Assembly: GCA_018902385.1 (NCBI GenBank)
Contig: JABSSW010000066.1
Span: 1-64,000, forward strand
Length of the DNA stretch: 64,000 bases
Reading direction: 5' to 3'
Origin: Physcia stellaris
Taxonomy: Eukaryota > Ascomycota > Lecanoromycetes > Caliciales > Physciaceae
A program made the position numbers and the translations under genes. A model generated the notes under the pieces. It had not been told where the DNA came from, did no database searches, and saw nothing but the letters and a program-made list of their open reading frames with translations. Positions within the stretch are counted from its first letter, which is position 1. The number at the start of each line of letters is the position of its first letter. This document shows positions 1 to 33,950 of this stretch, one piece after another.

Positions 1-1881
1 GTCTGTCTGTTTGTCGTCAACATTTTCTGTTCAATAGTTTGCAGTCAATCAGAACGCGCCGATTAATAAGAACTCGAAAGTTCAAATTCGAGAAATTTGA
101 AACAACGTATGTTTTAAATCGATATCGCTCTTGCTGTTTTTGCTTTTGCTTGATTCTGAAACATCGATCGTTTCATCATACTAATTTGCAAATATCTTCG
201 CGATCAAAATTCTCAACAAGATTCATTTCGATTGCTTTGACATATATATTCTGTTATCGCTCTCGTTTTCTGTTTTCGAATTTATCTCTTCACGTTTATC
301 GCATCTACGTGGAATTTTCAGCGTCAATCATGATCAGACAGATATCTAGATCACAATCAATGATTTTCGCAATGTCGATCGATAGAAAGAATGAATATTC
401 GCTTCGAGACGAAACTTGAAGAAGAAAGAAAATAGTGTTACGAGCATGTTTGAGAAAGAATCTCGATTGAGATTTTATCTTATCAGCCTTTGAAGTTCAT
501 ATGAAACTAATGTGATTTGACGCACGATCTACTTTTTGACATTCGATGCATCGTGTACATATTTGCTTTCTAAATCAAATATTCGTTTTTCTTGTTATTG
601 ACTCATACGATGTTCGATAACGATCAATTCGATCAATTGACACGATATTGAAAACGATTGTAATAATATCGAAATTTCAAAATATCGATGTTTCAAAATT
701 TTTTTCATTCGAAATTTTCGTTAATTATAACAAAATCAAAATTAGAACTGATTTGATTTTCGAATAGTCACGAAAATTTTTGCGTAAAATCAATAATGAA
801 ATATATTATAAATGTAAAAGCTTGATTTCAAACAAAATTCGAATCGATATGAATTGTTCATACGTTGCGCAATATTTTGCAAAAATTTGATGCTGTGTCG
901 AATTGTCAAACGATTTGATCGTTTTGATGTTTCGTCGATCGAAAAAAATTGAAATTTTTTTTAAACATATTTTATCATTTTTCGATGTTTGTTGATTTAA
1001 ATCATTATACGTTTTTAAATCATTTTTGCATAATTTCGTACGTAATTAAAAATATTTTGCATTGTGTTAATAATATTTTTTTGTTTTGACGATCGAAAAT
1101 CGTTTTTTCGTTATAACATACGAAATAAAATTTAATGAAAAACTCATACGAAAATGAAAATTTTTATTGACGAAAAATGAAAATAATTTTGTTGTTGCAA
1201 ATATCGCGTTGTTGTTTTTGCAAATTCGATCATGAACAATCAAATATTTCAATCGTTTTGTATGTAATTACGATATTGTCCAATTGTCTTTCGATATTTT
1301 GATTGATTTTTCTCGATTTGTTCATCGATTTTTGAATGAAAAACGATAAAAATTTATATTTGATGTCGAAAATTTCGACAAAATGTTTGTCAAACGAATG
1401 ATATAAATTGAAAATTTCGATTTGACGTTATGAAAAAAAATAAATTCATACGTATTTTGAAATACGTAATTGATAAATATTTTGATCGTGATTTCAATAT
1501 TGATATTTTCGTCGTTAACGATACAAACACGTAATGACGTTTTTTGTTAAATTTGTCAATTATCGTGCATATGACGTTATGATCGTGAACGTCGAATGAA
1601 TTCGATGATAAAATTCATTGATATATCGATTGACGTTGCAAAAATATAATCAAAAATGAACAAATCGTTTTGCGATTTTTGAAAATTTTCGTGCGTTGAC
1701 ATTTATAACAATTACGTACGTATTGACGAATCGTTTTGCGCATATTGAATCAATAATAATCGCGACGTATAAAATTTTTCATGCGATTAAAATTTGAATG
1801 TTTCGAAACAAAAAATTCATGAATTTTTTTGAAAAAATCAACGAATAAAAAAACATCGAGGAACATTCAAAATCGATTTTT

Positions 1882-2199
1882 TCAATACAAAACGTCATTT
1901 TTTTCAATACAATTTCGTAAATCAATTTCATTCATTGAAATGAAATTTTGTTCGATAATTTCACGATAAATCGTGCAATCATCGTCAATTTTGTTGACAA
2001 CAAAAATTCGTTCGTAAATAAATTCGTTAATTTTTATCGCGTAAATTTCGAATCGTTTCGAAATAAACAATATTTGTTTTCGATATTGATGTCGTTCGTC
2101 AATATCGTTTTTTGATCGTGAATCAAACATACGAATCAAAATATTTGTTTTAACGTTTTGAATTTCGAATTGAAATTGAATGACAATATTGAATTTCAA
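1882..2199 (-). pseudogene. Gypsy RNase H/integrase linker remnant
   Basis: A 105-residue frame looks like the segment between RNase H and the integrase zinc-binding domain of fungal Gypsy elements. It begins with a hydrophobic strand, then a short 'nILIRMF' piece in the position of the conserved KADALTR-like motif, then an acidic/basic linker. No Gly, Pro or Trp remain. It lies downstream, in the minus-strand sense, of the protease remnant, as expected. Confidence is moderate because every diagnostic residue has been altered. Confidence 0.45.
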
Positions 2200-4195
2200 A
2201 AAAGTTTTTGTTCAACGAATTTGACGAAAAATTAATTTTTTGACGTCATGAAAATTTTCAATTTTTTGTGATCGATGAAAATTTGATCGATTTTTCAATG
2301 TTTTCAAATTCAAACGTCAATGTTTTAAACAACGAATAATAATTAACAATTTTTTGTTATAAATTTCGTAATTGCATTCGATTGAAATCATATTGCGGAT
2401 TATAAAAAACGACGAAATGCAAAATTTTTCGTCGTCGTATTGAAATAATATTTTGCATTAGACGTAATCAAAAAAATCAATTTTCAAAATGATTTGTTTG
2501 ATTCGATCGTAATGTCGTAATATAAAAATTTCGATTATCGTTTTTTTGAAAAATTGAAAATTTTTTCGATTTCAACAATTCATTCGAAATTCACGAATTT
2601 TTGATCATTCGAATGAAAATTCGAATTTTTTTTCGAAAAATCACGAATGAATCGTTTGTAAAAATTGACGAAATTCACGAAAATTTGCATTTTTCAAATT
2701 TGTAAAACGTTTTCAATTGACAATGATTTTTATTTTTTCGAATTTATGCGAAAATCATTCATCGATAATATGACGTTCAAAAATGTTTTTTTTGAAAAAT
2801 TCGCATTTTTCAATATTCATTTGTAATTCGATTTTTTTGAATTTTTCAACATTTTACGAACGTGAACGATGTTTTTTTTGAATTTGTTGTAAATGAAAAT
2901 ATTATTTAAATAAATTTGACAAAATCGTTCAAAAAATTGAACAACAAATCGTTTATATAATGTTGTCAATTCGCGAATTCGTTAATCAATTCGAAAAATA
3001 ATATTCGATATTTGTACGATTTCTCATTTAAATAACAATGTGATAAATTTTTGTTTTTTCATTCATTCGAAATTTGTTAAAAATCGATACTTGATATTCA
3101 ATTTGATCAAATATTTGCAATTTTGCATTTTAATTAAAAAAATTTTTCGATTCGAAAAATGAAATATCGATTGCGTTTCGTGATGTGATTAAATCGTCGA
3201 TAATTCACATGGAAACGTAATTGATTATTTGATTTGATTGCAAATAAAACGAACGAAACGTATGTTGTTTAATTGAATACGATAAAACTTTTTTGAAAAT
3301 TATTTTCAAATATTTTTGAATTTTTGAAATTTGAATTCGAACAAAAAATATATTCGATTTCGAAACAATGTATTGTTATCGTTTAAAATTCGATTTTGTG
3401 ATCGTAAATTCGATACGACAACAATTTAATTATTTTTGAAAATCGAATATTTTTGATAAATGTTTGAAATATTTCGATATTTTTCATTATACGTTCAAAA
3501 ATCGATTTGATTTGTTCGTGTTTCAAAATTTTTTGATCATGACGACAATTTTTAACGATTCAAAATTTGTTCGCAATGTTTTGAATGCGAAATCGATTTG
3601 ATTGATCGTAATGAAAAAAACATTGCATTTTTGTTTTCGATTTTTGAAATCGACGAAAAAACAAAAAAAAAATCGCATCAATTATCGCGATATTAAATCG
3701 AATCGTTTGAATTGATTTCGAAAATGAAAAATTTCGAATTGTTGTTTTTTGATTTTTCAACGTTTGTTGCGTTGTTTTTCAAATTTTTTTTTTAACGAAT
3801 GTCGTTTTCGTAATCGTTGTGATATCAATTTTTGAATGATTTGATTGACGACGAACGATTCGTCATTTTGATCGATTTTCGAATGAATAAAACAATCGAA
3901 ACATTTTGAATCGAATACGTTTGATTCGTTCTGTATATAAAACGTTGAAAAATTAAATTGCGAACGAAATAAAATTGTATATCGAAATTTTATTGCAACA
4001 ATATGTTTCGCGTTATTTGTTTTCGATAAAAAAACATCGCGACGTCAATTAAATACGTTTTATCGACGATTTAAATCAAAATTTTCAAACGTCGAATTTG
4101 TATTGTTTTGATGAATATATTGTCATAATGATTACATTTGAACGATTTGAAAATCAATTTATCGTAAATCATTTTCAAAATAATTTCATGTTTGT

Positions 4196-4486
4196 TCATT
4201 CACGATTTTTTAAAATTATCGAATGATTGTTCAAATCGATGATGAACAAAAAAATTGTCAATTCGAAATGCAAATCAATTATCAATTTGAAATAAATGAC
4301 ATGAATTATTGAAAAAATTTGACGATCGTCGAATTCGATAATGAATTTCGATTTTAATAAAAATACGAAATTCATGTTCAACATGTTGTATACAAATTGC
4401 GCAATTTTTTTATCAATGAAAACATAATCAATTGCATCAATGTTTATTAAAATTTCTAATTTATGTTTATTATCGTTGAATGACAA
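4196..4486 (-). pseudogene. Gypsy retropepsin remnant
   Basis: A 96-residue frame resembles fungal Gypsy aspartic proteases. The region around ILINIDAIDYVFID takes the place of the active-site Asp-Ser/Thr-Gly stretch, followed by a segment on cognate positions ending in SIILKN, where these proteases normally have an ILG motif. The catalytic Asp and Gly are replaced by Asn, Ile and Asp, all explicable by G-to-A changes after A or G. It is non-functional. Family assignment is by eye from spacing and flanking hydrophobic pattern; a profile search against RVP/retropepsin families would settle it. Confidence 0.55.
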
Positions 4487-6539
4487 CGTACAATTGATGA
4501 TTAAAAATCGTTTGACAAAAAATCAAACAATTCGTCATGATGAATAAAAAATTTTTTAAACATTCATCAATCGCGTTTTTTTGATGTAAATTATTAATTT
4601 TTCGAATCAAATTCGTTCGATTCGTTGATTATGTTCATGTAAAACATTTGCATTTTGTGTTAATAACGTTTTTAATGTTTGTGAACGTTCAAACATTTTT
4701 TTCATACGTAATCAATTTTATCGCATGTAAAAACATTTGTTCGTGACGATCAATTTGTTTATTATCGAATCACAAATTTTGATTTCAACGTTGAAATGAA
4801 AATGAACGACAAATTTCACGAAAAAAATCGAAATAATAAATTTCGTAAAAAATATCGAAATCGAAATTACAAAAATTGATTTGAATTAAAATAATTCAAA
4901 ACGTTGTTGACGTGTCGCGATTTTTTTTTTTCGAAAATTTGATTATCGATTGTATATTTATTGCAAAATGATTCGAATTTCGTCGAACGTAATGAATTCG
5001 CGAAAATATACATTTATTGTTTTTTTCAAATTTAAAAAAAATTTTCATTAATTTTTCGATTTTGATGATTTCGTTATAATCGATTGAATTGTTAAAACGA
5101 AAAAAATTGAAATAAAAAAATTGAAAATTTTGAATATTCATGATTAATGTTCGAAATTGAATACGCATATTGCGTTTGAAATCAAAATTTTCGAAAATGA
5201 AATTCAAAATTTCAATATTATATGTCAATTTTTGAAATGATTTATGTCGATATCACGTATCGATTGTATGTGATCGTCGACATCATTTTCAATTCAATCA
5301 ATCACAATAATGATTGCGATTATGTTCGTGTCGTAATGATCGACGTTAATCGTCATTTTATCATGTATTTTTGTTTTTCAAACACGTCAAATAAATTTCA
5401 TTTCGTCGATGAATTTAAAAAAATGAAATGAATTTTTGAACGTCGTTTGTTTTTATTGAAAAAATTAATTACGTTGATTTCGTCGTCGTTGTTTTCATCG
5501 TCGTCGTCAAAATTTCGTGTACGATCGCGAATCGTGATTAACAAAACGTCATAATTTTTTAAAAAATGTAATCGTATTGTTTGATTAAAAATCGATCACG
5601 CGTTTGTTCGTAATTAATTTTCAATGTATTCATTTTTTTACGAATTTCATCGAATTCAACGTTTGTATTGATCAATTCGTCACGATCGACGTTGACGATA
5701 TTGTACAAATTTCGATATTAAATCAAAACGTTCAAATAATTGTCACGATCAATGCGTAATCGATCAAATTTTTTCAAAAAATCGATGATTTTTTGATTGA
5801 TTTATCATTTCAATTGATCGATAATGACGATGTTCAAAAAATGAATAATTTCGTTATTTTTCATTTTTATGAATTCGATCGTTGAAACAAATCGACGACG
5901 TTTGAATTGTTCGACGAAATTTTCGTCGAAAAAATTGTCATTGATTTCGTGTAACATACGATTCACATTGAAACGTAACGTTTTGAAACGTTGTTTCATC
6001 GAAATAAAAAATTCGAAAAAAATTGTTTCGTGATGATTTCGAATCATAATTAAAAATGAAAAATTGAAAAATGATAAAAAAAAAATTAATCGAATCAATT
6101 TTTTTTATCGTCGAAAATATCGTCGTTTGCGTGAAAATTCGATTTGTTATTTTACGATTTTCGTCAAATGTTTTATCAAAAAAAAAGTTCGTTATTTGTT
6201 TGATTAACAAAATTTTTCGTCGTTTGTTTCGTCAAAAAAATTTGATCGATTTGAAATTTTATTTTTGAACGTTCGCGTATTACGACGAACGATAAAATTG
6301 AAAATTTATTGTAATATCATGAATCGTGTTTGAATAAACGTATTATTGATTAATTAAACGAAAACAATAAATTTGCAAAAACAAATAAATACAAAATGTT
6401 GAAATTGCAAACAATATGCGACGTCAAGTTTCAAATCACGTTAATTTCAACGTAAAATTAAAACATAATTCGTTGTTCGATCACATATCATATCAATTAT
6501 TTACAAGTTTGCTCGTGAATTTTTTCAAAAAAATTTCAT

Positions 6540-8290
6540 GCAGCGCTTAAGATTTAAAATTAAATCTGATAAGATTGCGATGTTTTGCGAAAAGAGCTCG
6601 AGCTAGATCGCATTGAGCAAGAGTGTCGCAAAGTCGCAGATTCGAAAATTTCAATGTTTGATTTCTGAATTGCAAAATTGCAGTCATTTGATCATATTTT
6701 CGAAACATAGCATGATTTCGAATCGGATTTGATGCGATGAATTTGACAAACACGTGATATTTGAATTGCAAACACGCATATGATTTGAAACAATGTTTTT
6801 TATTTTCACTCATTGATAAGACTATATAGATAAACGTGAAAACTTCGTTGAATATCGTCGTACAAAGTTTTCTTTTCTAGATCAAATTTACAGTATTTGA
6901 CAATCTTCTCTCGTAGCATTATTCGCATCATGATTTCGTCGTTGACTCGAATCGCTGTGATCAAAGAAGAGTAAATCATCGATTTAATTACAGCAAAGAA
7001 ACTACTGCGATCTTTTCAGTCTCGATATCTTGTAGTTCAGACGGAAATAGCAACTTGATAAAACGAATTGATTCATTCAACATCGTTGCAATGTCTATCT
7101 GTAAAATCGATTTTGAATAATGTCAATCGAGAACGCTGCGAGCTGTTCATTTCTTTTTTGTATATGTTGAATATTCTAGAGACTTCGACTTGTTTCACGT
7201 TTCATCAATATACAAATATTTGACGTTTTCAAGTCTGTTGCTTCTTTTGATTTTGTTTTTGCTGAGACACGATTTGAATCTTGATATTCTCGTTGATTGT
7301 GTTCTCAAAGACGACATCGAATAAAGAGCGACAAAAGATAACAGAATCTTGAATTCGAAAATGTATGCGATCGGTTTCGAATCAAGTCATATCGTTCAAA
7401 TCGTTGACGATATAATGAAACTCTCGAAATTGAACGAGCGACTGTTATTGACTTGAAATGAGTGACAAAATCGAAAGAGAATGCAAATATCTTCGATATC
7501 AAGAATTGAGAATTCTGACTTGAATTGTTGTTGTTGTTGAGCAATGAGTTGATTCTGAGCGAGCAATTGCCGAGACTGTCGATGTTTCTTTTGTTTTTCT
7601 CGCTTTCTTTGTTCTCGTAGTGTCGTTTGACGTTCTTTTGCAGTGATAGACAGACCGAAATTCAAAATAGATTGCATGATGAATGTGAGATGCTTGAAAT
7701 AATGTTTCGAAAATGAACGTGTTTTGAATAGTGAATTCGAAATTGATTTCTCGGCAACAATTTCGCGTGTAAAACTACTTGTTCATCTCATAACTATTGC
7801 GATAATGAGTCGATTTTTGTTTTTATTGCAGCATTGAATTGCGCTCGTTTTGCTCTACAATTTAGGTTAAATAATTGAAAATCATATGTGATTGTTGATT
7901 GATGTGCAAGCTGCGAAATACTGCATGAACGCAATAGTCGAATTTTGATGTTCGTGATTTGAATTTTGAAAATTTTGTGTTTTTTAATCAAGTTAGCGTC
8001 AAAACTGAAGAGGAAACGCAGAATATTTTATTATAAGAAAATTTTATTTGTCAAATCTATTTGTCAGACATGCTCGTAACAAAAACAAAAACATCAAATT
8101 TCATCGCATTTTCATTCACAATCATTTCGCGCGCACACAGATTTATGAAATTATCAAATTGTAAAATTAATTGAGCGCATTTCAACGCATCAACAATCGC
8201 ATTAATTCGAACAATATTGAATTTGTTATGAGATTTGAAAATAAAATGAGTTTCGAATTCGTCGAGTTTGTTTCGCAAATCAAAATCTTT
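6540..8290 (-). repeat. Less-mutated remnant, unassigned
   Basis: Between 6540 and about 8050 ApG and CpT are again present, so this piece has been hit less than its surroundings. Minus-strand frames at 8278-8057, 7991-7794, 7677-7396 and 6813-6547 could be parts of one decayed coding region. The 7677-7396 frame is rich in Arg/Lys/Gln (short motif AQNQLIAQQQQQ), like the basic tails of some transposon proteins. I cannot assign a family. Confidence 0.35.
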
Positions 8291-8395
8291 TTCGTTAAAT
8301 TCGATGTTTTCATCAATTGAGAATTCAAATTTTCAAAGAGAAAATATATCATTGTTTATTGAATTTAACACGAACATCGAAATTTTTGTGATTAT

Positions 8396-8530
8396 ACAAT
8401 TGTTTCGCATTTTGTACATCAAACAACAATTACATTTGACATTGATTTGTTGAAATCAAATTATAAAACAAAATAAACGCATTTCAACGTATCAAAAATA
8501 ACAAAAATCGATTCATTATCGCAATAATTA
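8396..8530 (+). repeat. Direct repeat copy A (partner at 9783)
   Basis: This stretch shares interrupted identity with 9783-9919. Common blocks include ttgtttcgcattttg, caacaattacattt, gcatttcaacg and a long block ending in tcgcaataatt. The copies are about 1.39 kb apart in the same orientation and could be the LTRs or ends of a small decayed element. No target duplication could be recognised. Confidence 0.5.
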
Positions 8531-10280: not shown

Positions 10281-10478
10281 TGTTGGAAATACAGCCTCCG
10301 CAGGTGTGCTGCAGTCAGGATCCAGTTGGTATAATCTGACGAAAGAAGGACTAGTGCGTCCTTGTTGGGACTAGTGCCTTGGCACTCGCACACTTCTTGT
10401 GCTTTCATCTGCATGTAACTTACTAGAATAACGAGATTCAGAGCAATAGAATGGTAGTCACCCATGATTCTTTCAATA
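10281..10478 (+). repeat. 5' LTR of C2H2 element
   Basis: 198-bp LTR starting TGTTGGAAAT and ending TTTCAATA. Relative to the 3' LTR it carries T instead of C at seven places. Six of these C positions are followed by C and one is followed by A. It also has three transversion differences. As expected for an LTR it should contain the promoter, but I see no clear TATA box. Confidence 0.9.
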
Positions 10479-10491
10479 GGTTATGAGAACC
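10479..10491 (+). promoter_or_regulatory. Putative primer-binding site (initiator tRNA-Met anticodon type)
   Basis: GGTTATGAGAACC follows the 5' LTR without a spacer. GGTTATGAG is complementary to the anticodon-loop region of initiator tRNA-Met (CUCAUAACC), the half-tRNA priming known from copia-type elements. This suggests a Ty1/copia affinity even though no pol gene remains. Confidence 0.6.
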
Positions 10492-10834
10492 GGGTTAGCA
10501 GCTTTCGCTACATCTAGTACCAGCTACAGCAGCATGTCGGAGCACACGAAGCAGTAGTACCTAGCCGCAGGCAGTACAGAAGTGTACACACGCAGTAACC
10601 AACTCAGTGGAGTATCCAGTCTTGTCAGACCCGAAATTGACTCAGTTGCATTGGCAGCATTCAGTATCCTGATACACAGTACATTCAGTACGTCCTCAGT
10701 TACATCGGTAACACCTACCTACCCACCTTACGAATCCTTCGCGAATTCGCCTATCTACCGACCTTACCTTACGAACTCGCGTATACCTACTCGGACCTCT
10801 ACGCGAAAATCTACCTACGTATCACGCAGTCAGA

Positions 10835-12121
10835 ATGGCTGCCTTTACTCCTACTTATGCGAGTCCCGCACTCGCATCTACTCCTACTCCCGCGGCCACG
10901 TCCAAATCGGCGCCCGTATCCTCCACCTCCGAACCTGACCTCTTACCTTTTTCGTCTGCCCTTTGCGACCACGTGCCTGAAGGCCACCCCATGACGCGAG
11001 ATCTAAAAACGCTCTATAGCATGCACCTGACTGGGGATGCTAAGGCTTTAAGATGCAGTTGGTTCACTCAAGCGAAGAGGGCACAAGAGAGTTATCATTT
11101 ACGAAAGCATGAGTTGGAGGTCAAGAACAAGCTCAAGGAGGAAATGAAGCAGTTGACAAAGCAAAAGGAGGAAGCCCGTCTGGCCAAGAAACGGGCTGAA
11201 GGATATACTTGTCGGCGTTGCAAGAACAGTACGAAATTTGACAGCAACATCAAGCTCCACGAGCATATTCGTACTCGTCATGCGAAGAAGCCGAAGGCAG
11301 TTGTTTCGCCCTCTGCGCAGGCCTCAGAACCGAAGGCTGCTTCGCAGCAGTCAATGCTCTCATCTTCTTCGTCATCTCAATCGGTCATCTCGTCAGCCCC
11401 TACGTCACCGAAATTAGTAGCCGAGTCACCAGCTACTCCTATCTCTTCGAAACCCTCACTAGAATCCTTGTCGGTTGCAACACCAAGAAAACCGATATTC
11501 TGGGCAGAAATTGCCTCACGATCAGTCGTTGCATTCAAGTTTTCACGTCTCCCGATTGCGACACCCAAATCGGTGTGCAAATCCTCGGAGAATGCAAGCA
11601 TTGCTTGCCCGCCTACTCCGCCTCGAGCACCTACACCATCGAGGCCCTATCTCACCGTGGACGACCTGTTCCGCATGTTCGCTGGGAAGCCGAGTCCATT
11701 TGGCCTGCAGCGGCACCAAATGCGCTCGTTTTCTCCTCGCGGCCCTGGCAAATGCAGTCCCGCAAGCAAATGTGGCCCCATACAAAGCCGCATTACGTCA
11801 TACTTCCATGCGGTGGCCTCACCTGCTTCCAAATCGGCCAAATCCGAAGCATTTGCACCAACGCATGACTCGGTTAAACAGTCGGCCCGCACATCACCTT
11901 CCTTGTTTCGCCCTACTTCTCGATTTGCTTCGGTGCGCCCCTCTTTCTCGGCATTCTCTCGCCCTTCTTCTGTTTGCAGGCATTGTCAAGGGCGTTTTGC
12001 CACCTATTGGCCTACTGGCTGGGCCACGCCAAATGCCTCAAGATTTGAGAACAATGAGATACCCATGGGGCAGCGCTATTGGAGTTTCGCTCCTCCCCGC
12101 CCTACTTTGGGGGAGTATTGA
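10835..12121 (+). CDS. C2H2 zinc-finger Gag-like protein of LTR element
   Basis: An intact 428-residue ORF fills the centre of the element. It has a Pro/Ser/Thr-rich N-terminus, a Lys/Glu-rich helical segment (about residues 80-122), then a C2H2-type finger with C126, C129, H142 or H144 and H149. A long Ser/Pro/Thr-rich region follows, containing FWAEIAS and a YLTVDDLFRMF motif near residue 275. I know similar zinc-finger proteins from fungal retroelement Gag positions, and a related finger occurs in the Gag region of the decayed Gypsy element at 43430-43510. I infer an RNA/DNA-binding Gag-like role. The stop codon overlaps the first of twelve GGGGGAG motifs. A cellular gene captured by the element is the alternative. 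Confidence 0.7.
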   Translation: MAAFTPTYASPALASTPTPAATSKSAPVSSTSEPDLLPFSSALCDHVPEGHPMTRDLKTLYSMHLTGDAKALRCSWFTQAKRAQESYHLRKHELEVKNKLKEEMKQLTKQKEEARLAKKRAEGYTCRRCKNSTKFDSNIKLHEHIRTRHAKKPKAVVSPSAQASEPKAASQQSMLSSSSSSQSVISSAPTSPKLVAESPATPISSKPSLESLSVATPRKPIFWAEIASRSVVAFKFSRLPIATPKSVCKSSENASIACPPTPPRAPTPSRPYLTVDDLFRMFAGKPSPFGLQRHQMRSFSPRGPGKCSPASKCGPIQSRITSYFHAVASPASKSAKSEAFAPTHDSVKQSARTSPSLFRPTSRFASVRPSFSAFSRPSSVCRHCQGRFATYWPTGWATPNASRFENNEIPMGQRYWSFAPPRPTLGEY

Positions 12122-12975
12122 CCCCTCCTCGGGGGAGTCACTACTTTGGGGGAGTTAGCATGTTGTTTGTTTGTTGTTTGCCCGCCCGCCCTCCCTATTA
12201 ACCGTTGATCGGCCTGGGGGGACTAAAAGTTGTTGTTGTTTTAATGGATTCGATGTCCCGCCCCTCCCGCCCTATTTCGGCCTGGGGGAGCTTTGAAAAG
12301 TTGTTGTATGCTTTGTTTTATTGTTTCACTAATGAGTAGGGACTTACCTTTGCTGTGGCTTCGTCTGTATCTAACACGACTAATCTACGATATCGCCTCT
12401 TTCCCTACTACCCTTGAGGCTTAGTCGCCCGATAAACAAGAGGGGGATAGAGTGAGATCGTTAGAACGGAGGAGGAACAGACTAGATAGTACCGCTTCGG
12501 GGGAGCGTACTATACAGTCATTGCTAGGAGTCACGTCGATACCGCTTCGGGGGAGCGTATTGAGTCTACTACAACAGGAGCTTGATGCCAAATAGTACCG
12601 CTTCGGGGGAGCGTACTATGCAGTCATTACATCCTCGGCCTTGCAGAGCAGGAACTCGGTCAAGAAGGACAAGAACTCGATCAAGAAGGACAGGAGATAT
12701 CTGACCTTTTCGCATACTAATCGACCTGATTCTCTGCCAGGTCTTAGTTAGGTCAGAAAAGCTCGTTTCTGCAGTCTTCGCATCGGTGCATGACCTCACC
12801 ACGTTGGGGAGCTTGCTCGGAAGCTCCAGGCAATACGTCGCTGGGGGAGCTCTAGGATACGCATCGCTGGGGGAGCTACATCGCTGGGGGAGTTACATCG
12901 CTGGGGGAGCTTGCACGGAAGCTCCAGGCTCGATAGGATACAGGGCAGGTGGCACAAGCGGTTGCTGTGGGGGAG
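12109..12975 (+). repeat. Twelve dispersed GGGGGAG motifs; last one is the polypurine tract
   Basis: Exact GGGGGAG starts at 12109, 12131, 12148, 12284, 12499, 12549, 12605, 12843, 12869, 12886, 12903 and 12969. The last ends on 12975, the base before the 3' LTR, which is where the plus-strand primer (polypurine tract) of an LTR element must lie. Several copies are in longer local repeats: taccgcttcgggggagcg (three copies) and catcgctgggggag (a short tandem run). Confidence 0.85.
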
Positions 12976-13173
12976 TGTTGGAAATACAGCCTCCGCAGGT
13001 GTGCTGCAGTCAGGATCCAGTTGGTATAACCTGACGAAAGCAGGACTAGTGCGTCCTTGTTGGGACTAGTGCCTTGGCACCCGCACACTCCTTGTGCTCC
13101 CACCTGCATGTATGTTACCAGAATAACGAGATTCAAAGCAATAGAATGATAGTCACCCATGATTCTTTCAATA
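12976..13173 (+). repeat. 3' LTR of C2H2 element
   Basis: 198-bp LTR, same length and ends as the 5' copy. Relative to it, this copy has A instead of G twice, once after A and once after G. It is followed by the ATTTT target duplication at 13174-13178. Confidence 0.9.
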
Positions 13174-14483
13174 ATTTTTAACAATCGAATAATCAAAAAA
13201 TCATTTATTTTTAATCGTTTTTTCAAAAATTCAATTATTAATTATGAAAAATTATTTATATTATTTCAATAATGAAAACATCAAATTTATATACATTCAA
13301 TTGTTTTATTATTTGTTTATTTCAAATTATACACTTTTCGTTAAATTGTTAAAAAACAATTAATTTTGCAATATTGTTTTCATTACGACGTCGAAAATGT
13401 GCAATAATCGTCGAATTTATAAATTATCAATTTATTTTTTGAATTTTATTACGATTAACAATTGTCAATAATTGTATTTAAATTGTCGACACGAAATCAA
13501 TCGATAAAATTAAATGTAAAATTTCAAAAATTCGATATCGATATTATGTTAAATAAAAATGTTATTCGAATATAATTTCGACGATTGTTGATTAACGATA
13601 AATAATTAATTATTTAAAGTTAATTTTTTAAAAAATTTTCGTTCATTAAAATAATCATTTTGCATAATTATCTTGTTAACATAACGTTCGTGACAATCAT
13701 GTCGAATAAAATTGTTGATTTTTATACTATTTATATTTGATTTTCTTTTATAACATTTAACGAGTTAATCAATCAATCATTTAATTAATTTAAGAAAATA
13801 TTCTTTGAATTGATATGATTTATTTGATCATGATGATTCTTTTTGATTCAGATTCGTGTGCTCAATCAACAATCTCGAACAACATCAAAGAAAGAAACAT
13901 ATTCGAGAAACTCTCATAAGAGTTGAATGTACGTATTTTGATCTTGTTCAATCCTGAAGACGTGAAAATCCGTTCTAGTGCGGTTTCGTGTGTAACAAAA
14001 AACGACCAAGGAAGAATTAATAATAATAATAATACTCATGCTACAGAAGAATCTTGATATGGGTCCGAGGACATCATACAGGAGTCCAACGATACTCCAT
14101 AATACTCCTTATTAGTCCCGTGGAATCATGCATGGGAAACCTGAACGACAAATCATCTAAGCAGTAATTATATCAATTCGATGTAGTATGACAATTCACG
14201 ATAACAACGCATAGTAGTGTATCATACGACATCGTGTCTTACAGTACCCTAAGGTACTGTACCCACAATAAAGCTGGATGACGATGAAAGCAGGACAGCT
14301 CATCTCCTAATTATTCGATGCAAGGTTGGTACCGTGAAACAATATCTTATTCCTAGGTCGGACCTCCGCGTTTTTACAGCATTTCTGTAATCACTTGGTC
14401 CAGGAAGAGTGGAAGAACATCACATTTGGTCTATTTCCTAAGTTGTACAGGTTGTGTAAAGCTTGCATGTACCCTGCCTAGGA
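13174..14483. other. Gene-free: end of AT-rich block and transition to genic DNA
   Basis: Up to about 13.9 kb the DNA is the same hypermutated AT-rich type as before the C2H2 element, which interrupts it. From about 13.95 kb base composition becomes normal. A short TAA microsatellite lies at 14018-14033. No coding region is recognised. Confidence 0.8.
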
Positions 14484-16385
14484 TCAAGCTTCAGTGCTGG
14501 CCTCGTGCTTCTGCTCCAACACTTGGCTGCAGAGCTTACTCCTCCTCCTAAGGAAGCCCCCGTATCTCAGTAGAACAAAAGGAGCGATAGCCATGAAAAG
14601 TGTGACCGCTCCGAGCAGACTTGAAGCTCCGCTGACACCCAATGATGCATACAAGGGCCGTGCGAGCAAAGGTAAGAGCGCGCCGCAAATGCTTCGGGAA
14701 ATAGCCGCTGAAGCCAACGCTGAGGCTGCGAGAGTACCATAACCGTCGCAAAGAACGCTTGTTAATGACATGAATGTCAGCTCTATGCCCATTCCATATG
14801 GGACTCCAGCAAGCATTGGGATCAGCCAATGACATGCCGGTTTGGCAGACCAACCCTACAAGTTAGCAAATTGTCAGTGGAACTGTCATCATTGTTTGTT
14901 TAGTCTTACTCGCCCAGTAGAAGCAGTAGCAAATGCACTGCACAGAGATCTGCCACGCTACTCACCAGCCAGAAAAGAGATAGCGCACAGAGCGGTCCAC
15001 CAAGGCAGGCCAGCGGTATCCGTCGATATTCTTCTCTCACGGCCCACTTGCTGCCATTCAGCTTGGCTCGCTCCATGTAGCGATCCCAGGCCACTACTAT
15101 TCCCATGTCTAAGCAGGCACCTATCGGCACTTGGTCGTGTTAGGCCTTCTCCAGTTAGACTCGGATGTGTATCTCACTTGGGATAAATGCCAACGCTGAG
15201 ATGCCAGGGCTCATATGATAGACTCCTTCACGTAACATTAGTGTGGACAATCAAATACACACCTGGAGAACACGAGACTCTACCTTCGAATATTATCGGG
15301 TAAGCCTCAAAGAAAAGGTAGAAGATAGCATATTCCAATGCCATCAAAGAAGACGTGGCCAGAACGATAGGCTCAGCAAAAAGACGCATTGGTCTAATAA
15401 GCGCCACTTTGAGTATTTCCATTGCCCCTTGTTTCTCGGGTGCCGGTAATGTTGCAAATTCCGAGCCACTGCTTCGTTCGCGAGTCGCACGAATACGCCA
15501 CGCTTCTAGTACAGGACCATATGTTTCTGCATCTGTAAGTCTTACCGCAAATACTGTATGTAAGACTCACTTACCTGGGAGGAACCATAGAGGAATCCAG
15601 GAGACGGCCGCAATTATCAAGGCAATCCAGTATTCCCACCTCCAGTCTATTGGCGCCACGAAGCCCGAAATTATGGGGCCCATTGCAGGCCCGATATTCA
15701 AACACTTCAAGCTTGTTAGCTGGCCATAAGCTATTGATATTTGCCGCTACTTACAATCATAAGCGCCATGATTGCTCTTCCTCTATAAGCAGCATTTGAA
15801 TAGACATCCGCACAGATCCCTCCAGCGAGGGTATACGGTGCTGATACCCATAAACCGGCGAAAAATCGGAAAACCAGAAGAGCTGGCCACGATGTTGCAA
15901 GTGCACAACAAAGTGTAAAGATGGTATATCCAGCGAAGGTTATCCGAAGTATGATTCTTCTCCCATACATCTCACTGAGGGGGGAAAAAACAATAGGTCC
16001 AAAGATATAACCTATAAGAAAAACAGAGATGGGGAGTGCTAGCTGTTGTTCACTTGTGACTTGGAAATAGTCGGCCGTGAAGCTGATGGCACCCCCAGGA
16101 AGCGACGAGCTGATAGCAGAATTGACAACTACAAGTAGGCTTGTGCCAATTACCAGGAGCTTCTTCGTCTGCCTCGCCATTTAGTAAGAACTCTACGCAC
16201 ATTCTGAGAAAGCTCACCCATGGCCAGCTCTCGGCGTCACGGCAGGCTTCCGAGTTGAAGTCAATCAGTGTCCTCTCATCGGTATAGACTGATGCTGAAA
16301 TATATGGACACGTAGATATAGAGGGGGTCCCTTCAAAGTCGAAATTGGGTAGTTGGACACTAATGGCTTTGACTGGTTGAGACAT
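14484..16385 (-). CDS. MFS multidrug-type transporter (DHA1 family)
   Basis: Seven exons, complement of 14484-14855, 14966-15120, 15178-15225, 15284-15532, 15575-15704, 15755-16168 and 16218-16385, join in frame to 511 residues, the usual size for a 12-helix DHA1 drug:proton antiporter. After a cytosolic N-tail ending ESWPW come the first membrane helix and the motif-A-like loop GPIVFSPLSEMYGRR, then the RGRA motif after helix 4 (AAYRGRAIMAL). LNIGPAMGPIISGF is the motif-C-like helix 5 segment. The last exon covers the final helices and ends EASTEA. All introns are 42-110 bp with GT-AG ends; the first uses an acceptor within GGCGAGGCAG to keep frame. The substrate is unknown. It stands alone next to a transposon block, with no cluster partner. 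Confidence 0.88.
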
Positions 16386-19300
16386 CTTACTGTGGCCGCC
16401 TAACCGGTCGACAAAGCTTGAGTATTGGAAACCGGGCACGTTCCAAGAATATATATCTTTGCGTTAACAAGCCCATGGGCCCAACGCCCTCCGGTTTCTG
16501 CATGGGGAACATAATCTCCTGCACTTAAAGCTATTTCGCATCTAATAGCTCGAAGGGACGTGCCATTGCAAGATGGTCGTGCTTTATGCAGTGAAAGGTA
16601 CGTCGTACTGGACGTGTACTGGTTAGCCTGCTCGACATAGGCGGCGTTGCTGACTCGCCATGGGCCCCTTCACAGAGCGTAGATTGAACTTTGCATACCT
16701 CTACTGCACGTTGTAAGAGCCGCACCCGATCGAGATGCGGTCAATGCCTCTTAGCGCACGCTATGACATTTAATATAGACCTCCTCAACGGTCATCTCGA
16801 TAACGCATGCTTGTCCCTAGTTTTGACGCATGGCGCCTACTAGGATGTTATGATACGTTTGCTGCCCACGACCCCTTGACATCTGATCGTATCGAGCTCA
16901 AGCTTATTTTGCCTTCTGAAACAGACAAGCAGGGTTCAATAAATTAAAGAACAGACGTGAACATGTGACCGAGGAACGTGAGCCATAACGGCCTTGCAGA
17001 AGCCCTAGCCAGGGACTACGTGCCACGGTGCTTTGCCGCCAGTCACTCCTCTGGCAGTACCCAATCGATAACCGACATGGCTCGACATCGAAAGTTCAGG
17101 TCACCATGATGCTTTGGAAATGTCGCCACCTACAGGAATGGGAGTATAGGAATCCATCAGCTCTACACCACAATCAACTTCGGTAAGCCTGTAGACACGC
17201 GAGCAATGAGCCAGGGTGAATGAGGAGACACTGAGAAGAGAGCATAGGAGGAAAGCAGTTCTATGAACAGGTGTCACTCAAGGGTGCAGGGATCGGCTAT
17301 TGCAACGACGCTTGGGATCCTGCAAGATCGATTGCGACCGACACTAATGCATATGTATATCATTCCGCAAGCACACGGACGGAGAAAAGGGAACAGTAGT
17401 AACGGGCACGGCCGTTCATTGTTCTCCAACGTCATTCGTTCCTGATCTACCGTTCCTTGCATGTGCTGCGCCAACGGAACGGGCCGCTAAAATGGTAACA
17501 TTGTCTCACTTCAGAAGTTCAGACTCCCTGGACCCTGACTCCCTACCTTAATAGACAAGCCTGAAGCTCCCAAGGCCATGGCGGAAGTAGTGGCTCCACC
17601 CCGCACCCCTATCGCACAAGTCGAACCAGAACATAGCCAGAGTCCCGCCGGACTGAATTCAAGCAAAGGTTTCTTCTGGAGCTGATGACCAACAAGCCTC
17701 TTTGAGTCTTTCCCCCAAAGCTAAGCTTACGCTCTGGCGAGCTTTGCTCGGTGACTGCTCGCGAACCCTCCCAGAAAGACGGTCTCCACGACTGCCCAAA
17801 AATCGATTCTCTACTCTGTCTTCCTTAACACATAGCGTTTCGCCGCTTGGAAGGGCGAAAGGGTGACCCTGCATCGCATGACTTTGCCCTTAGCCGCTTT
17901 TGCAATCTGTGCAAGAAGCGATAGCAGCCCGCTTCGATTGAGAAAAATCTCATGAATGGACCGGGCCATTCCCAGCTTCAAGCCTCCAAGGGCCGGTATT
18001 GCGGAAAACAGCCGCCGCAGCATAGGACTTGTCAGGGAAACACAGCTCTGGCTATTTATGTCATCTTGAACGGATCGGTTTCGGTAAGGATAAGTTCATA
18101 AGACTGTAAATGCCATTGGTAGTATTCTATTTCCTACTTTACTTCCATCATTATCCAAGAATTTACGTCTGTTGTTCCGGGCCTCGAAATTGGTACTGCC
18201 GAAGGAAAGTGTACTGGATAGTCGATATGAAGTTTTCTGGGAAAGCTGTTTCATCATTCTGGGATTCGATAAATCTTGTTCACTGTATGACTGGAAGATA
18301 CGTGTCCATCTGATACCAGACCAATCAGACAAAATTTTCGCACAACCGACAATTCGAGGTGCTCCATACAGCAAGTCAAGCCTGATGTAAGCTTCCTCAA
18401 ACGATGGGGGGTGACCATGGGTGAACAATGAAGAGCAGTCTCTCTCATAATTCTTGAAATCCTTGAGTACGTACAGCTTTTCTAGCAGCTACAAGATCTA
18501 GCACGAATGACTTTCCCCACCTAAGTACGTATTACCGAAACCTATAGAGCTAGGTATCTCATTGGCTGATAGTCGGTAACGAAAACATGTATACGGCGGC
18601 AATACAAAAAGCAGGCCACTGCGTTTGGACCGCATAGGCAAGCGGCTCGAGCGACCATGTAGACATGGGATCAGCCTTTTGGGTTAGTGTCTGTTTCGGG
18701 TCTGAAGGTCTACTGAAGAGCTTTTATTGAACGTGTAAGCCTGAGATCAGGGTCGTAGATTCCTGCCACTCAACCTAAACGTGAGTGGGCCTAAGAGAAA
18801 ACCTCTAATGGCCTTTGAAATATTGCTTTGTCAATGGGCTTTGCTTGCCCAGCGCAAGCCACGACTGGCGAGTCGAGAAGTGTCAGGCGTTGAGAATAAG
18901 GATCGAACATGCTTTGCGTTGATAGAAAAGTTGAAGGAATGGAAGCTTATTGGAGAGGAGAAAAGCATGACTTGGTAAGGTGGTTAGTTCATAAGTCCTC
19001 CCTCCAACCGCACCTTCCTACTACCATCCTCTTCGTTCACCATGGTAAGACCTAATACTCTCACCATGAAGCCTCTATCGTTGCCTTTCACAAATCATCC
19101 TTCATAAACACCATTACTCACGAACAACATCAACACTGATTTACATTGCATGAACATCATCCCACTAATTCACACGCATCACTTCAACCGTCCACGCCAT
19201 CGTTCACTCCACACCCGCATACGCAACATGATTGAAAAGTTTGACAACAATTCACTCAAATCGTTCACACTATTCTTGCACGACTTGCACGAAGACAACA

Positions 19301-20732
19301 CGCACTTAGAGAATGTCGTGTGATGGTCGTTTCAATGCGAGTGGCGCCTGACAGATTGCAATCTTATACGACTATTATGTTTCTGTTGCTCACGCGAAGT
19401 CCTGCTATCGGTTACCTCGACGAGAGAATGGTGACCGCACTATTTGCTACTTTGCCACTATTTGTCCACTGGGTCATAGCCTCGTTACGCCACAATTACA
19501 AGCCATGGGGCCCCTTCCATTGAAACGCAAAGATCTATACTGTGGGCTTTGCTCGAGTTAATGTGCATCACAGATGCCTTTCTGCTGTACTATGCCCCGT
19601 GGAAAAGCCCATATAGCGGTAAATTTTTGTATCCTTACTGTGAGATAAACTCTAACAAACAAAGAACAAGTTAAGAGAAGCCCCAGCATCGCCAAAGTCA
19701 TGTTTTGCAGGGCTTCCTCCGCTCGCTTGATTGCCTACGCATTCGAGCAACTCCGGGCCCCGACCCGAGGAAAAGCAGCGGGGTGTGTCTATCCTCTATT
19801 GATTTTACTACACCACTTCTGCCGTGTAAGGCTATGCTGTAGGCTCGACTACCTGACCATGTTATCTTGGCTCAGGGGCTCTACATCCAATCCTGGAGGA
19901 TCGGTATCTGGGGAAGCCGGAACCAGTGCGAACGCATCGCGAGAAGGGACATTGTTGATAGTATGTGCTAACCATTGTATGGCTTTGTTGGTGCTTTGGT
20001 AATTGGCACGAAGTAGAGTGGTCATGCCGACAGGTTCTGATCTCGCAACGGAAGGACCACTCCGGTTGGAAGTCTTAGTAACACAAGTCTAATAGATATA
20101 ATACACGAAGCTCTCTTACTATCCATCTTAGGCCGCCACGCTGAAGTTGGTGTTTGTGCCATTTGTACGCCAAAAGGGAGACCCCTACTCTTCGCGAGCA
20201 GCTGATACGGGATTTTGGATTGCCTGGTGCAAAACTGGAGCTAACGCTGCAATTAGATCGACATCTTGCAACCGCGTACAAAATTGACGTAAGTTTCCCA
20301 CTTCGCCGACTCAGCCGTGCATTCATCCTGCATGGCCATACTTCCCATAGTCAATTGCCAAGTGGCTACTGGAGTTACATAGATTATCAATGCACGAAGT
20401 CTATGGGCGACCTAGATTAGTCCCCTATCAGAGAGTGACGCTACATGCAGGACATCAAAGTTGAAGGTTCACACCCTTGCTTTGTCTTAGACAATTACGA
20501 GGTCGTGCGTCAGTACCTTACTGTACCTATAGGGTGATGGGTTCCTCCCAATTGAACCGACCACAGTCACAGCTACAACTCGAACATTAAACCTCACAGT
20601 ATATTCTATCAACTCAATTAGCCTCCAGGGAGGACCTTGCTTTCTTGTTATTTAAACGGTTGAGCAAGACAAGTGGTGGACTTGCTGGCCACGATAATTC
20701 ACCTGCGGTGATATTCCAAAGGCCTGTCGCAC
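16386..20732. other. Long gene-poor interval
   Basis: About 4.3 kb of GC-balanced DNA without a gene I can support. ORFs here are short and show no recognisable family. The only identifiable item is a fragment duplicated from the 3' end of the Nup170 gene (18869-18929). The stretch 19000-19300 is C/T/A-rich on the plus strand. The region could hold small non-coding RNAs or a fast-evolving small gene, but nothing in the sequence identifies one. Confidence 0.6.
18869..18929 (+). pseudogene. Duplicated fragment of the Nup170 3' end
   Basis: About 61 bp match 62501-62561, the last coding codons and stop of the Nup170 gene. They share the blocks agtgtcaggcgttgag and ctttgcgttgatagaaa, with six mismatches plus a 1-bp length difference. 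Upstream similarity fades within about 30 bp. It has no reading frame of its own and lies 43 kb from the gene, in the same orientation. Confidence 0.7.
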
Positions 20733-21459
20733 TCATGGTGATGTATATGCTCGAGTCTGCTTTGCTTCAGTCTGGTCGCGTTGCTCAAAAGCAAGCAACA
20801 TCATATCTCGCTGCTGTGGAGTCACGATGTTGTCCGTCCCCCATCCATCGACCTCTTCCTTCGTAGCCCACTTGAATGCTTGATGCTCTGTTGGATCTAG
20901 AGTGATCTTAGTGTTTTCTAGAAATTTGTCAGCCGATTGCGGTGGTGCGATGGCGTCATCAGTACAGAAAGCTCTAGGTAGCCTGGGTAAGCTATGGTGA
21001 ACGTACTGCTGGCTCCGCCCTGAATTTCGATTTCAAAACTAAGTTTGATCCAACGCTTTTCGGGTCCTGTGTTGAATTCAATCCCTTGTCCAACAGTACG
21101 AACAAATTTTGTCAATTTCAGTCCCGTCTCTTCGAATACTTCTCTGGCCAGGCCGTGTAGTATTGTAGGATCGCTGGTGTCTACGGAACCTCCAGGAACC
21201 TCCCAGCCTGGGATAAACTTAGTGATTGGAATCCCCTTCAAATGAGGTACTTGCGATTTGGGAAACCTCGCTCTGATGCAGCACGTTGGACGAGAAGCAA
21301 GCGCTTAGGCGCCCGGGTGGTGAATATACAGGCAGCAACGGCTAGATTGGTATATCTTTGGCTGCTACCGAGGTACGGGGAGAGTGGGATTCTGAACGGA
21401 AGAATGCAGGAGGGGATGGAGATCTGGATAAGATCATGATCGGGATCTGAAGTGGACAT
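20733..21459 (-). CDS. Nudix hydrolase
   Basis: Three exons, complement of 20733-20917, 21007-21207 and 21255-21459, give 196 residues. The Nudix box runs from GGSVDT through LAREVFEETGL, with the conserved Gly, REVxEExG core and metal-binding glutamates intact. It is preceded by LLLVQRA and FPNRWEVPGG, typical for fungal NTP/ADP-ribose-type Nudix enzymes. The last exon carries ITLDPTEHQAFKWATKEEV, normal for this group. The first intron (21208-21254) begins GCAAGT, not GT, and ends CAG; using it restores FPNRWEVPGG exactly, so it is read as a GC-AG intron. The start at 21459 was chosen because it leaves a normal short N-tail. The exact nucleotide substrate cannot be told. Confidence 0.88.
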
Positions 21460-21962
21460 TGTTCCCAACGGTCTGGCAAGCTGGAGCTGAAAGCCTGTAT
21501 ACGTCACTAGACCTAGGAGCAATCGTGCTGCGAAGTTGGTGATCTAGCGGTAGAAGAACTTCGAATTGATCTAATGAAGCCGCTTACGCGCAAAAAGCGT
21601 TCAGTCAGCAGAGCTGGGGAGGTACCTGGATATTATCGTTGGCAATGAATTGCTCTTTAGATGGAGTGAAAATAGAGGGAAGAAGGGGTTAGGATGTTCC
21701 AGGCATCACATCGTTTTTGCTTTCAATGTAAGAATGGATTGCATGCCTGCATCAGGCTCCAGCATAATCATTGGATCTCAACTGAGACACATTCTGCATA
21801 ATGCCAGCCGTAATTACTTATAGGGGACAACGCTCGTTCAACTATACTGCAAGTGTTTCGGAACGAAACACCAAAATATGTCGCAATAGCGAGCAGTGAC
21901 TGTAGAGGTGTCTCCCTCCAGCAATGAGTCTGATTATTGTGACCAGACTCCCAACCAAAACT

Positions 21963-23111
21963 TCACGATTGATCTTCTTCGTACCTGTTTCTGCCATGGT
22001 AAACGCAGATACCCTTTCCTCCAGACTTGTGTTTGGGATGCCTGGGGCATAAAGGACTGCTCGGAAGATGTTCCGGCACGTTTAGCTCGAAGTGCATAGC
22101 ATTGTCTCGGGCCTCGTCGGCTTTGAGCTTGACAGCGTACCAATCAATGTCCGAGCTTCTTTTTCCTCCGAACTTCGAACGATCAATCGTGCCGGAGCTT
22201 AGCGTCCTGTCCTCACTGTCCCGTACATCGTAGCTGAAAAAGAACCCACGTACTTTGCCATCCTGCTCAAGCAGTGGCGGTGTTCCTATCCTACGCGCCT
22301 CAGATGGAAGGTACGTAGGGGCTCCAGGTGCCGATATTTCGACTCGGAAATACTGCTTTCGGTCGGAGCCAATGTACATTGATTGCGGGTCTGGAGTCGT
22401 GGGCGTTCCAAGAGGCGCATTGCCCATGAGTATGTCTCTGAGGGAACTGGAATTAGAGTCCACCCCGCGTAAAGGCGAAAGGTGCGAGCAGGGCGCCGAG
22501 TTACCGGTCATCGATTGTTTACTACTATGAGAGCTCGCGCGCGTGAGCCTTTTCTCAGGTAGGTGTTTAAGAATAGTCGAAGCACGATCCAACACATGAC
22601 CAGTGAAGCTCCTGGGTGGCGATAATTTGAGACGTGCTCGCTTTGCGGTAGCTTGTTTGCTGTTGGCACCTAGACGAAGCAATGTCCGCCGATACGTACC
22701 CACCTTCTGGCCAGGAGTGGACGGTGCAGAAGAAGTGGTGGCCTTCAAACCTGCGGCTCGCAGTTGACTTCTTTCATCTTCCATCACGGGCTTTGGTGTT
22801 AGATCATGCAAGACGACCATTGGCTCTGGTAGCTCGGAGGTTGATTCTATGATCTTGGCGACAGAGTTCTCCTCCTCAGAAGCTGTTCGTGACCTCTCGG
22901 ACCGATCTTTGAGGCCAATTCGATCGAAAAAGTGTCCTGATGTTAATCTAACATGTTCCGGTCTCCTTGCCTTGTTGTTGGACTTCGGGATCGTTGGCGT
23001 AGCCTTGGGAGATATTTCGACTTCGGACGAGTGGGTTCGTGGTGCTCTTGGTCGTAGAGACCATGAGCGAAAGAATGGCAACTCGGGATCAGGGCTTGTC
23101 TGGACACTCAT
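21963..23111 (-). CDS. Conserved fungal protein, function unknown
   Basis: A single-exon ORF of 382 residues when started at the Met of MSVQTSPDPELPFF. An in-frame Met 60 residues upstream is possible, but its extension is hydrophobic and looks like non-coding DNA. The protein is Ser/Pro/Arg-rich and low-complexity for about 250 residues. It is followed by a more ordered C-terminal part that includes YFRVEISAPGAPTYLPSEAR, GFFFSYDVRD and, at the very end, CPRHPKHKSGGKGICVYHGR, whose Cys/His spacing could bind a metal. I have the impression that this C-terminal block is conserved in related fungi, but I cannot name the family. It is divergent from SMC2 with about 610 bp between the starts. Confidence 0.7.
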   Translation of the reverse strand: MSVQTSPDPELPFFRSWSLRPRAPRTHSSEVEISPKATPTIPKSNNKARRPEHVRLTSGHFFDRIGLKDRSERSRTASEEENSVAKIIESTSELPEPMVVLHDLTPKPVMEDERSQLRAAGLKATTSSAPSTPGQKVGTYRRTLLRLGANSKQATAKRARLKLSPPRSFTGHVLDRASTILKHLPEKRLTRASSHSSKQSMTGNSAPCSHLSPLRGVDSNSSSLRDILMGNAPLGTPTTPDPQSMYIGSDRKQYFRVEISAPGAPTYLPSEARRIGTPPLLEQDGKVRGFFFSYDVRDSEDRTLSSGTIDRSKFGGKRSSDIDWYAVKLKADEARDNAMHFELNVPEHLPSSPLCPRHPKHKSGGKGICVYHGRNRYEEDQS

Positions 23112-27422: not shown

Positions 27423-27707
27423 ACCGCGATAAATGCTCGTACTTGAGGTGCTTATCAAGGAGCAAGATGTTTCAGCGGTTGCATGGTGTCTAGGCGTATC
27501 GGTCACGGGCATGACACTACGCTGTTATACAATCAGGGAACTCGTCAATGAACGAGCACGGTGAATGATGTCCAACTGTACAAATCTGTGGGTATTGGCG
27601 CTGCTCGGTACCAAGCTCAAAGACTTAAGGATGGGGTCTGTCCTATAATGTTCGTCGTGTAGGATCACCAATTGCATGGTATTCTTCGTGTCAGGGCGCT
27701 TTGGCCT
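27423..27707. other. Convergent 3' intergenic region (SMC2 / hydrolase)
   Basis: 285 bp between the stop codons of two convergent genes. It should contain both polyadenylation regions; no feature is distinct. Confidence 0.5.
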
Positions 27708-33941: not shown

Positions 33942-33950
33942 CTATTCATC
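33913..33950. repeat. 19-bp exact tandem duplication over the Lon stop codon
   Basis: Two perfect copies of ccgagatgcactattcatc lie head to tail at 33913-33931 and 33932-33950. The second copy contains the last codons and stop of Lon (D-E-stop on the minus strand). The first repeats them just downstream. Confidence 0.9.

Follow-up and report, generated by a model that had tools for sequence, protein, structure and literature searches.

What kind of process could remove cytosine almost completely where it precedes C or T, while leaving it in place before A or G? That question is raised by the first 64,000 nucleotides of contig 66 of Physcia stellaris (JABSSW010000066.1, 218,717 bases; the assembly, GCA_018902385.1, comprises 147 contigs and 44 Mb), a stretch referred to below as the window, in which long AT-rich blocks display exactly this pattern. 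An original prediction, made from the letters alone, had proposed a process resembling repeat-induced point mutation (RIP), aimed at cytosine followed by a pyrimidine (CpY). The analyses described here, whose genome-wide statements draw on tens of loci distributed across many contigs, make the mutational process itself nearly certain, and render it likely that the cause is a repeat-directed, RIP-like mutator which changes C to T with the preference CpC > CpT >> CpA > CpG.

The depletion is readily seen in the AT-rich repeat at 601-6480, where both strands together contain 4 CpC and 20 CpT dinucleotides, as compared with approximately 181 and 548 expected from base composition, and where both dinucleotides are scarce on either strand, whatever 5' base precedes them. 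In the five full 1-kb core windows (1001-6000) the odds ratios are 0-0.06 for CpC, 0-0.04 for CpT, 3.97-4.49 for CpG and 1.19-1.36 for CpA. The hand count offered with the original prediction for positions 1081-1260 was reproduced exactly (CpG 11, CpA+TpG 8+14, CpT+ApG 1+0, CpC+GpG 0, TpA/ApT 10/23), and the odds ratios bore out the loss of CpC and CpT that had been placed at 600..6480. The loss also extends beyond those coordinates: the same signature, with CpC nearly gone and the loss of CpT partial, is present at 1-600, 6481-10270, 13230-13760 and approximately 37750-48250.

That these dinucleotides were lost by C-to-T substitution was established by alignment of decayed repeats with GC-rich relatives, in which the type of substitution, its dependence on the 3' neighbour and the order of preference are directly observed. 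In the five decayed retroelement copies that could be aligned to the GC-rich copy L056 (L062-L066), 1942 of 1994 CpC sites (97%) and 1787 of 2090 CpT sites (86%) have changed, along with 171 of 2005 CpA sites (8.5%) and 84 of 1846 CpG sites (4.6%); T-to-C changes number 136 in 7680, and transversions 84 in 15611 (0.5%). Expressed per site, these counts correspond to 3.6 changes at CpC, 0.05-0.09 at CpG and CpA, 0.018 for T-to-C and 0.005 for transversions. The five copies are not fully independent, because their residual CpT sites are shared 1.6 to 3.5 times above chance. The changes occur on both strands of the aligned repeats, and the identity of the 5' neighbour alters the frequency of change at CpC and CpT by no more than a factor of two (0.11-0.22; 0.83-0.99). 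When the 40 longest aligned pairs (at least 300 columns, GC drop at least 0.04) were compared, pairs from distant families (for example, L061/L067 and L060/L063) also showed changes of 0.2-0.3 at CpA and CpG, which are taken as old divergence. The prediction of a C-to-T process aimed mainly at CpC and CpT, and not at CpA, is thus upheld by the repeat alignments.

The same contexts are favored in a second family, represented in the window by a GC-rich 2.9-kb element at 10281-13187. When this element was compared with 19 other copies, six displayed a clear C-to-T excess (unpolarised, CpC 22-38% and CpT 9-30%, with CpA 3-6% and CpG 4-9%), and a seventh, L020, a partial one. For a polarised comparison, a site was used only if the window copy agreed in base with all the intact copies that reach it, these being at least four of ten; the ten copies designated 'intact' and the eight designated 'mutated' were picked from the 19 non-window copies after the first comparison had been seen, and one copy (L014, from a second version of the locus described below) was excluded. 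Pooling six of the eight mutated copies gave 156 changes at 876 CpC sites (17.8%) and 151 at 1001 CpT sites (15.1%), versus 10 at 1078 CpA sites (0.9%) and 9 at 703 CpG sites (1.3%; Fisher p 3e-70). The remaining two, kept apart, gave 24/157, 10/170, 0/183 and 1/122 (L020) and 4/150, 4/179, 1/187 and 2/123 (L021) for CpC, CpT, CpA and CpG, respectively. Intact copies left out one by one and scored in the same way yielded frequencies of 0.7-2.3% (CpC 36/1576, CpT 30/1755, CpA 12/1843, CpG 13/1237).

Copies at different stages of decay further indicate that the preference is ordered in time. Relative to the GC-richer copy L048, the window repeat at 6481-8400 (of which the first 1.55 kb was aligned) has changed 102 of 118 CpC sites (86%) and 56 of 181 CpT sites (31%), together with a single CpA site of 216 (0.5%) and 2 of 160 CpG sites (1%), and the further decayed relatives L049 and L050 have reached 96-97% at CpC and 81-93% at CpT; CpC is therefore exhausted before CpT. 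In runs of cytosine the first C has changed in 12 of 27 CCC trinucleotides, versus 73 of 78 CCT and 70 of 78 CCA, a lag that is expected if the middle C of CCC becomes T first and leaves the slower CpT behind. Once CpY is nearly exhausted, as in the saturated repeats, CpA slowly follows: in an alignment of eight copies of the saturated core, of the columns in which one or more copies hold C, 190 of 446 at CpA, 50 of 444 at CpG and all 42 at CpT vary between C and T. The description originally given, in which CpC and CpT are lost while CpA and CpG are kept, consequently stands as an overall account, and requires amendment in that CpC goes before CpT and that CpA is itself weakly hit at a late stage. 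The statement that the pattern is the opposite of canonical RIP is likewise sustained, both by the alignments (8.5% at CpA versus 97% at CpC) and by a TpA/ApT ratio of 0.39-0.48 across the first seven kb of the window, below RIP's 0.89; and the exclusion of 5-methyl-CpG deamination agrees with CpG being the least changed context in the alignments to L056 and of the saturated core, with an odds ratio of about 4 in the core.

The mutated DNA alternates along the window with gene-bearing regions that serve as internal controls, as follows:

1..600, no strand assigned: AT-rich stretch; CpC lost and CpT retained in part; of 58 residual CpT sites, 22 differ from contig C119
601..6480, no strand assigned: saturated repeat, rich in AT (GC about 0.25); hardly any CpC or CpT, and CpG over-represented about 4x
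6481..8400, forward strand: repeat at an intermediate stage, aligned to the GC-richer relative L048 (contig C50)
8401..10270, no strand assigned: AT-rich mutated stretch containing short repeats; CpC lost, CpT partly lost
10281..13187, forward strand: GC-rich (0.51) repeated 2.9-kb element, unmutated here and with mutated copies elsewhere; reference in the polarised test
13230..13760, no strand assigned: short mutated AT-rich segment that separates the GC-rich element from the gene region; gene-side edge gradual, about 300 bp
14001..37700, no strand assigned: gene-bearing region and internal control with normal dinucleotides; edge at 37.7-37.8 kb within about 150 bp
37750..48250, no strand assigned: second mutated block with relics of Ty3-like retroelements; odds ratios 0-0.07 for CpC and 0.13-0.55 for CpT; right edge gradual, about 400 bp
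46328..46912, forward strand: open 194-aa stretch in the second mutated block; integrase zinc-binding domain (PF17921, E 2e-10)
48500..64000, no strand assigned: gene-bearing region and control with normal dinucleotides

The dinucleotide odds ratios reveal no depletion of CpC or CpT in the gene-bearing parts of the window. The repeat status of the block at 37750-48250 is given solely by its retroelement domains. The 2.9-kb element bears direct terminal repeats of 212 bp (10281-10492 and 12976-13187, 92% alike), one end of it accounts for the block edge at 10.25 kb, and a Pfam search with its 469-aa frame gave no match at E 0.001. Where mutated DNA adjoins genes, the edge at 37.7-37.8 kb is abrupt, and the transition is gradual at 13.75-14.0 kb and at 48.0-48.45 kb; since only one of the three gene-side edges is abrupt, edge sharpness was dropped as an argument against spreading of the process from repeats.

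A second version of part of the locus allowed the more recent behavior of the process to be followed. Contig C119 (22.4 kb; L043-L045) is collinear with window positions 1-20606 at 94.7% identity; within its gene part (6.6 kb) the identity is 97.8%, and the 2.2% difference carries no context bias. Across 6481-10270, the two versions differ at 93 of 230 residual CpT and 17 of 20 residual CpC sites, whereas CpA (12 of 483) and CpG (13 of 369) differ at the gene level. The mutator thus kept acting after the two versions split, and this holds whether they are haplotypes or duplicates. C119 is probably another haplotype, because its gene part displays no CpY excess, and the assembly may accordingly be partly unphased. 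The 2.9-kb element is unmutated amid AT-rich mutated DNA in both versions.

Outside the window, the mutated DNA that was tested is repeated and the genes that were sampled are spared. A 1-kb probe from the core (2000-3000) recovered at least 39 other copies at 91-97% identity, among the 40 of 367 candidates that were scored, and low-GC 500-bp windows in loci on other contigs have likewise lost CpC and CpT. Ten 3-kb stretches taken at arbitrary places on other contigs showed depletion in none of their 30 one-kb windows (GC 0.45-0.56, CpC and CpT normal), and no depletion was seen at the methyltransferase loci described below. With window genes and all 30 arbitrary windows normal, and mutated repeats on many contigs, the confinement of the process to repeats holds in this sample; neither of the observations named beforehand as contrary to the original prediction, namely repeat alignments led by CpA and the same depletion in genes, was found among the retrievable copies and sampled genes. 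Canonical, CpA-directed RIP was also considered as a second process: in a scan of 500-bp windows of loci L002-L032, a single window with GC below about 0.42 had a TpA/ApT ratio above 0.89 (in the flank of L024), and this candidate was not accepted. The saturated copies (601-6480 and L002-L008) are still 92-97% alike, perhaps because complete conversion of CpY drives all of them to one end state. Two retroelements, L057 and L058, retain long open frames (1024 and 1151 aa), are not AT-rich, and seem to have escaped the mutator.

Such a preference has a particular consequence for coding sequences. C-to-T changes at CpY on either strand create stop codons only from TGG, giving TGA, so that decay would proceed chiefly through missense substitution and falling GC content, and not by stops. 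In a simulation of full conversion applied to four long open frames of the window, a CpA target produced 37-58 stops in each, versus 0-10 for a CpY target, all of them TGA. Within 150 reverse-transcriptase matches (of 527 candidates), stops tallied from hand transcription comprised 250 TGA, 33 TAA and 3 TAG, and 10 matches contained no stops.

The behavior of the two strands was examined in seven copies. In L020 a strand bias is observed directly, with 6 of 217 plus-strand sites mutated versus 42 of 216 on the minus strand (p 1e-8), and weaker imbalance is found in L024 (p 0.003) and L029 (p 0.02); of the seven, L022, L023, L028 and L032 show none. In L028 the strands are clumped along the copy, with 22 runs versus 36.5 expected, a value as low being obtained in 0 of 4000 simulations. 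Clumping was significant in that copy only, and was rejected as a general mark of the process.

Taken together, these features suggest a mutator that would convert C to T on either strand while reading the base 3' of its target; CpC would be struck first and CpT after it, CpA seldom, and CpG least of all. It may represent a form of RIP that targets homologous copies during the sexual phase. Its agent could be an enzyme of the cytosine-C5-methyltransferase class, since an enzyme of that type is more compatible with reading of the 3' neighbour than are deaminases of the AID/APOBEC type, which read the 5' side. Because the process does not pass RIP's own test, at CpA, it is classed as RIP-like, a variant set apart from RIP proper.

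The original prediction had suggested examining the genome for RID/DIM-2-type and deaminase genes, and candidates of both kinds are present. A C5-methyltransferase profile search returned three genes (four matches). One, L010, is DIM-2-like, with PCQ and ENV triads and a best PDB match (9bap, 608 bits, listed as a cytosine-5 methyltransferase) that we take to be Neurospora DIM-2. The other two, L011 (C5:497807-501292) and L009 (C6:790057-794028), were assigned to the RID/Masc1 class by their motif-VI triads, without a tree; these are EQT and EET, respectively, both of which are described for that class in the available part of one source (PMC6709928). Two stop codons within the L009 match are read as introns because they are flanked, by eye, by GT and AG. 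The occurrence in one genome of two RID/Masc1-class genes with different triads forms a natural pair for the study of specificity. Three further places (L068, L069 and L070) match the OTT_1508-type deaminase profile PF14441 above the Pfam cut-off, and one Pre-SET domain match was found, as expected for a DIM-5-like gene; a search for the chromo-shadow (HP1) domain, made without a responding positive control, gave no match.

The two RID/Masc1-class proteins are the leading candidates for the enzyme, followed by the DIM-2-like protein. A fuller reading, which we advance tentatively and hold at somewhat less than an even chance, is that a RID/Masc1-class paralogue has shifted its target from CpA to cytosine before a pyrimidine, and that the resulting repeat-directed mutator destroys transposons chiefly through missense substitution and falling GC content, leaves AT-rich frames open over long distances, maintains the similarity of copies through a common end state, and escapes indices built on CpA and TpA. 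An alternative shares the mutational process with this reading and differs in the enzyme, and the confidences placed in the two overlap: a DIM-2-like enzyme, linked to heterochromatin, would mark or deaminate CpT and CpC in repeats, and RID would be uninvolved. The presence of the DIM-2-like gene and of the Pre-SET match is compatible with such a route, as are two of the three gene-side edges, which fade over 300-400 bp in the manner expected of spread from repeats; and a 2026 review, in its available part, ascribes to Neurospora DIM-2 a preference for CpT across all CpN contexts (PMC13297926). The first target here is CpC and not CpT, however, and the edge at 37.7-37.8 kb is abrupt, and we regard this alternative as rather unlikely.

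Passive, long-term deamination of 5-methylcytosine at CpC and CpT in silenced repeats would account for C-to-T changes in a methylation-like 3' context, and for the continuing loss of residual CpT between the window and C119, which runs about 17-fold above CpA, CpG and the gene level. Such deamination is usually credited with an approximately ten-fold rate, whereas the per-site changes at CpC exceed T-to-C changes and transversions by about 200-fold and more; furthermore, L020 is mutated mostly on one strand, and passive decay is accordingly judged improbable. The biased strands of L020 and the clumping in L028 would suit a stand-alone DNA cytidine deaminase with a 3'-pyrimidine preference, for which one of the three OTT_1508-type genes could be proposed. 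AID/APOBEC deaminases read the 5' neighbour, however, and the 5' preference here is weak; nothing found here links the OTT_1508-type family to DNA, and this proposal appears very improbable. That the pattern might be a compositional accident or a sequencing artefact in AT-rich DNA is favored only by the low GC of the blocks, and is contradicted both by changes seen in alignments to GC-rich relatives for three families on many contigs and by reverse-transcriptase stops that are mostly of the predicted kind, so that its probability is negligible.

Several observations nonetheless weigh against the repeat-directed mutator proposed here. Not every repeat is hit: the 2.9-kb family has 19 partly diverged copies outside the window, of which 12 show no clear C-to-T excess, and the intact retroelements L057 and L058 (95% alike) differ by C/T at 40, 38, 30 and 23 sites before C, T, A and G, which represents a mild CpY excess only. 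CpA is not fully spared, since the window and C119 differ in the saturated core at 78 of 669 CpA sites, as compared with 15 of 753 CpG sites. If C119 were instead a duplicate within the same nucleus, 6.6 kb of genes at 97.8% identity would have escaped a process that acts on repeats. Clumping of strands in one of seven copies, and the absence of imbalance in four, belong to the same side of the argument, as does the preference for CpT with which Neurospora DIM-2 is credited in the available portion of the review cited above (PMC13297926).

If the reading of a shifted RID paralogue is true, similar systems may lie unnoticed in genomes that have been scored as RIP-negative. Because the preference is almost the reverse of that of classic RIP, standard tests miss it, and DNA with a heavy load of these mutations can pass as clean in screens by TpA/ApT or (CpA+TpG)/(ApC+GpT); indices for CpC and CpT are already part of RIPCAL, according to the part of its description that was available (PMC2621366). 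The RID-class pair with different motif-VI triads could reveal what reads the 3' base, and the exception bears on the open question of how RID acts on DNA.

Comparison with known systems places the process close to, and apart from, several of them. Like RIP of the Neurospora type, it changes C:G to T:A on both strands of repeats according to the 3' neighbour, renders blocks AT-rich, and occurs alongside RID/Masc1-class and DIM-2-like genes; unlike it, CpC leads, CpT comes next and the CpA that RIP prefers is nearly spared, so that TpA/ApT is low and not raised. For N. crassa one source cites the ranking CpA>CpT>CpG>CpC, and for Trichoderma it puts CpA and CpG at the head and CpC at the end (PMC5496416, in the available portion, where one sign is lost from the text). 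A major class of CpT-to-TpT changes is shared with the CpT-biased RIP of Botrytis, Sclerotinia, Magnaporthe, Anisogramma and Colletotrichum truncatum, in which CpT accompanies CpA (PMC4352252, PMC6180176, PMC10998396); in the accessible parts of these sources no CpC lead is reported, and the CpT families of C. truncatum still have a TpA/ApT ratio of about 1.6. Alignment tools have likewise shown CpT to be a strong class in fungi capable of RIP, with Neurospora Tad1 among the examples, as described in the available sections of two papers (PMC2621366, PMC7882544).

The RIP-like mutation of basidiomycetes and Tuber also converts C to T in repeats, and its target is given as CpG (TpCpG in Pucciniomycotina; PMC4014442, PMC4352252, both as available in part), which is the best protected context here. 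In Rhizoctonia AG8, CpC is the most closely spaced class of single-nucleotide polymorphism in one table (every 214 bp), although its authors, in the portion available, describe a CpG bias affecting genes and repeats (PMC4014442). DIM-2 methylation and DIM-2-dependent RIP resemble the present process in their non-CG contexts, CpT preference and action on repeats, and differ in that a CpC lead is not described for them in the available part of the review (PMC13297926); the 5'-neighbour dependence of AID/APOBEC-type deamination is not found here, where the effect is at most two-fold. Within the literature searched, with most subscription papers outside reach, no report of CpC-led RIP was found, one apparent mention of 'CPC' (PMC5602860) being a strain code. 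A survey covering 1,239 genomes of fungi arrives, in its available part, at a CpA preference common to RIP-like defences (PMC12543289); a clear exception, with a nearly reversed preference, suggests that the target reading of this machinery can evolve.

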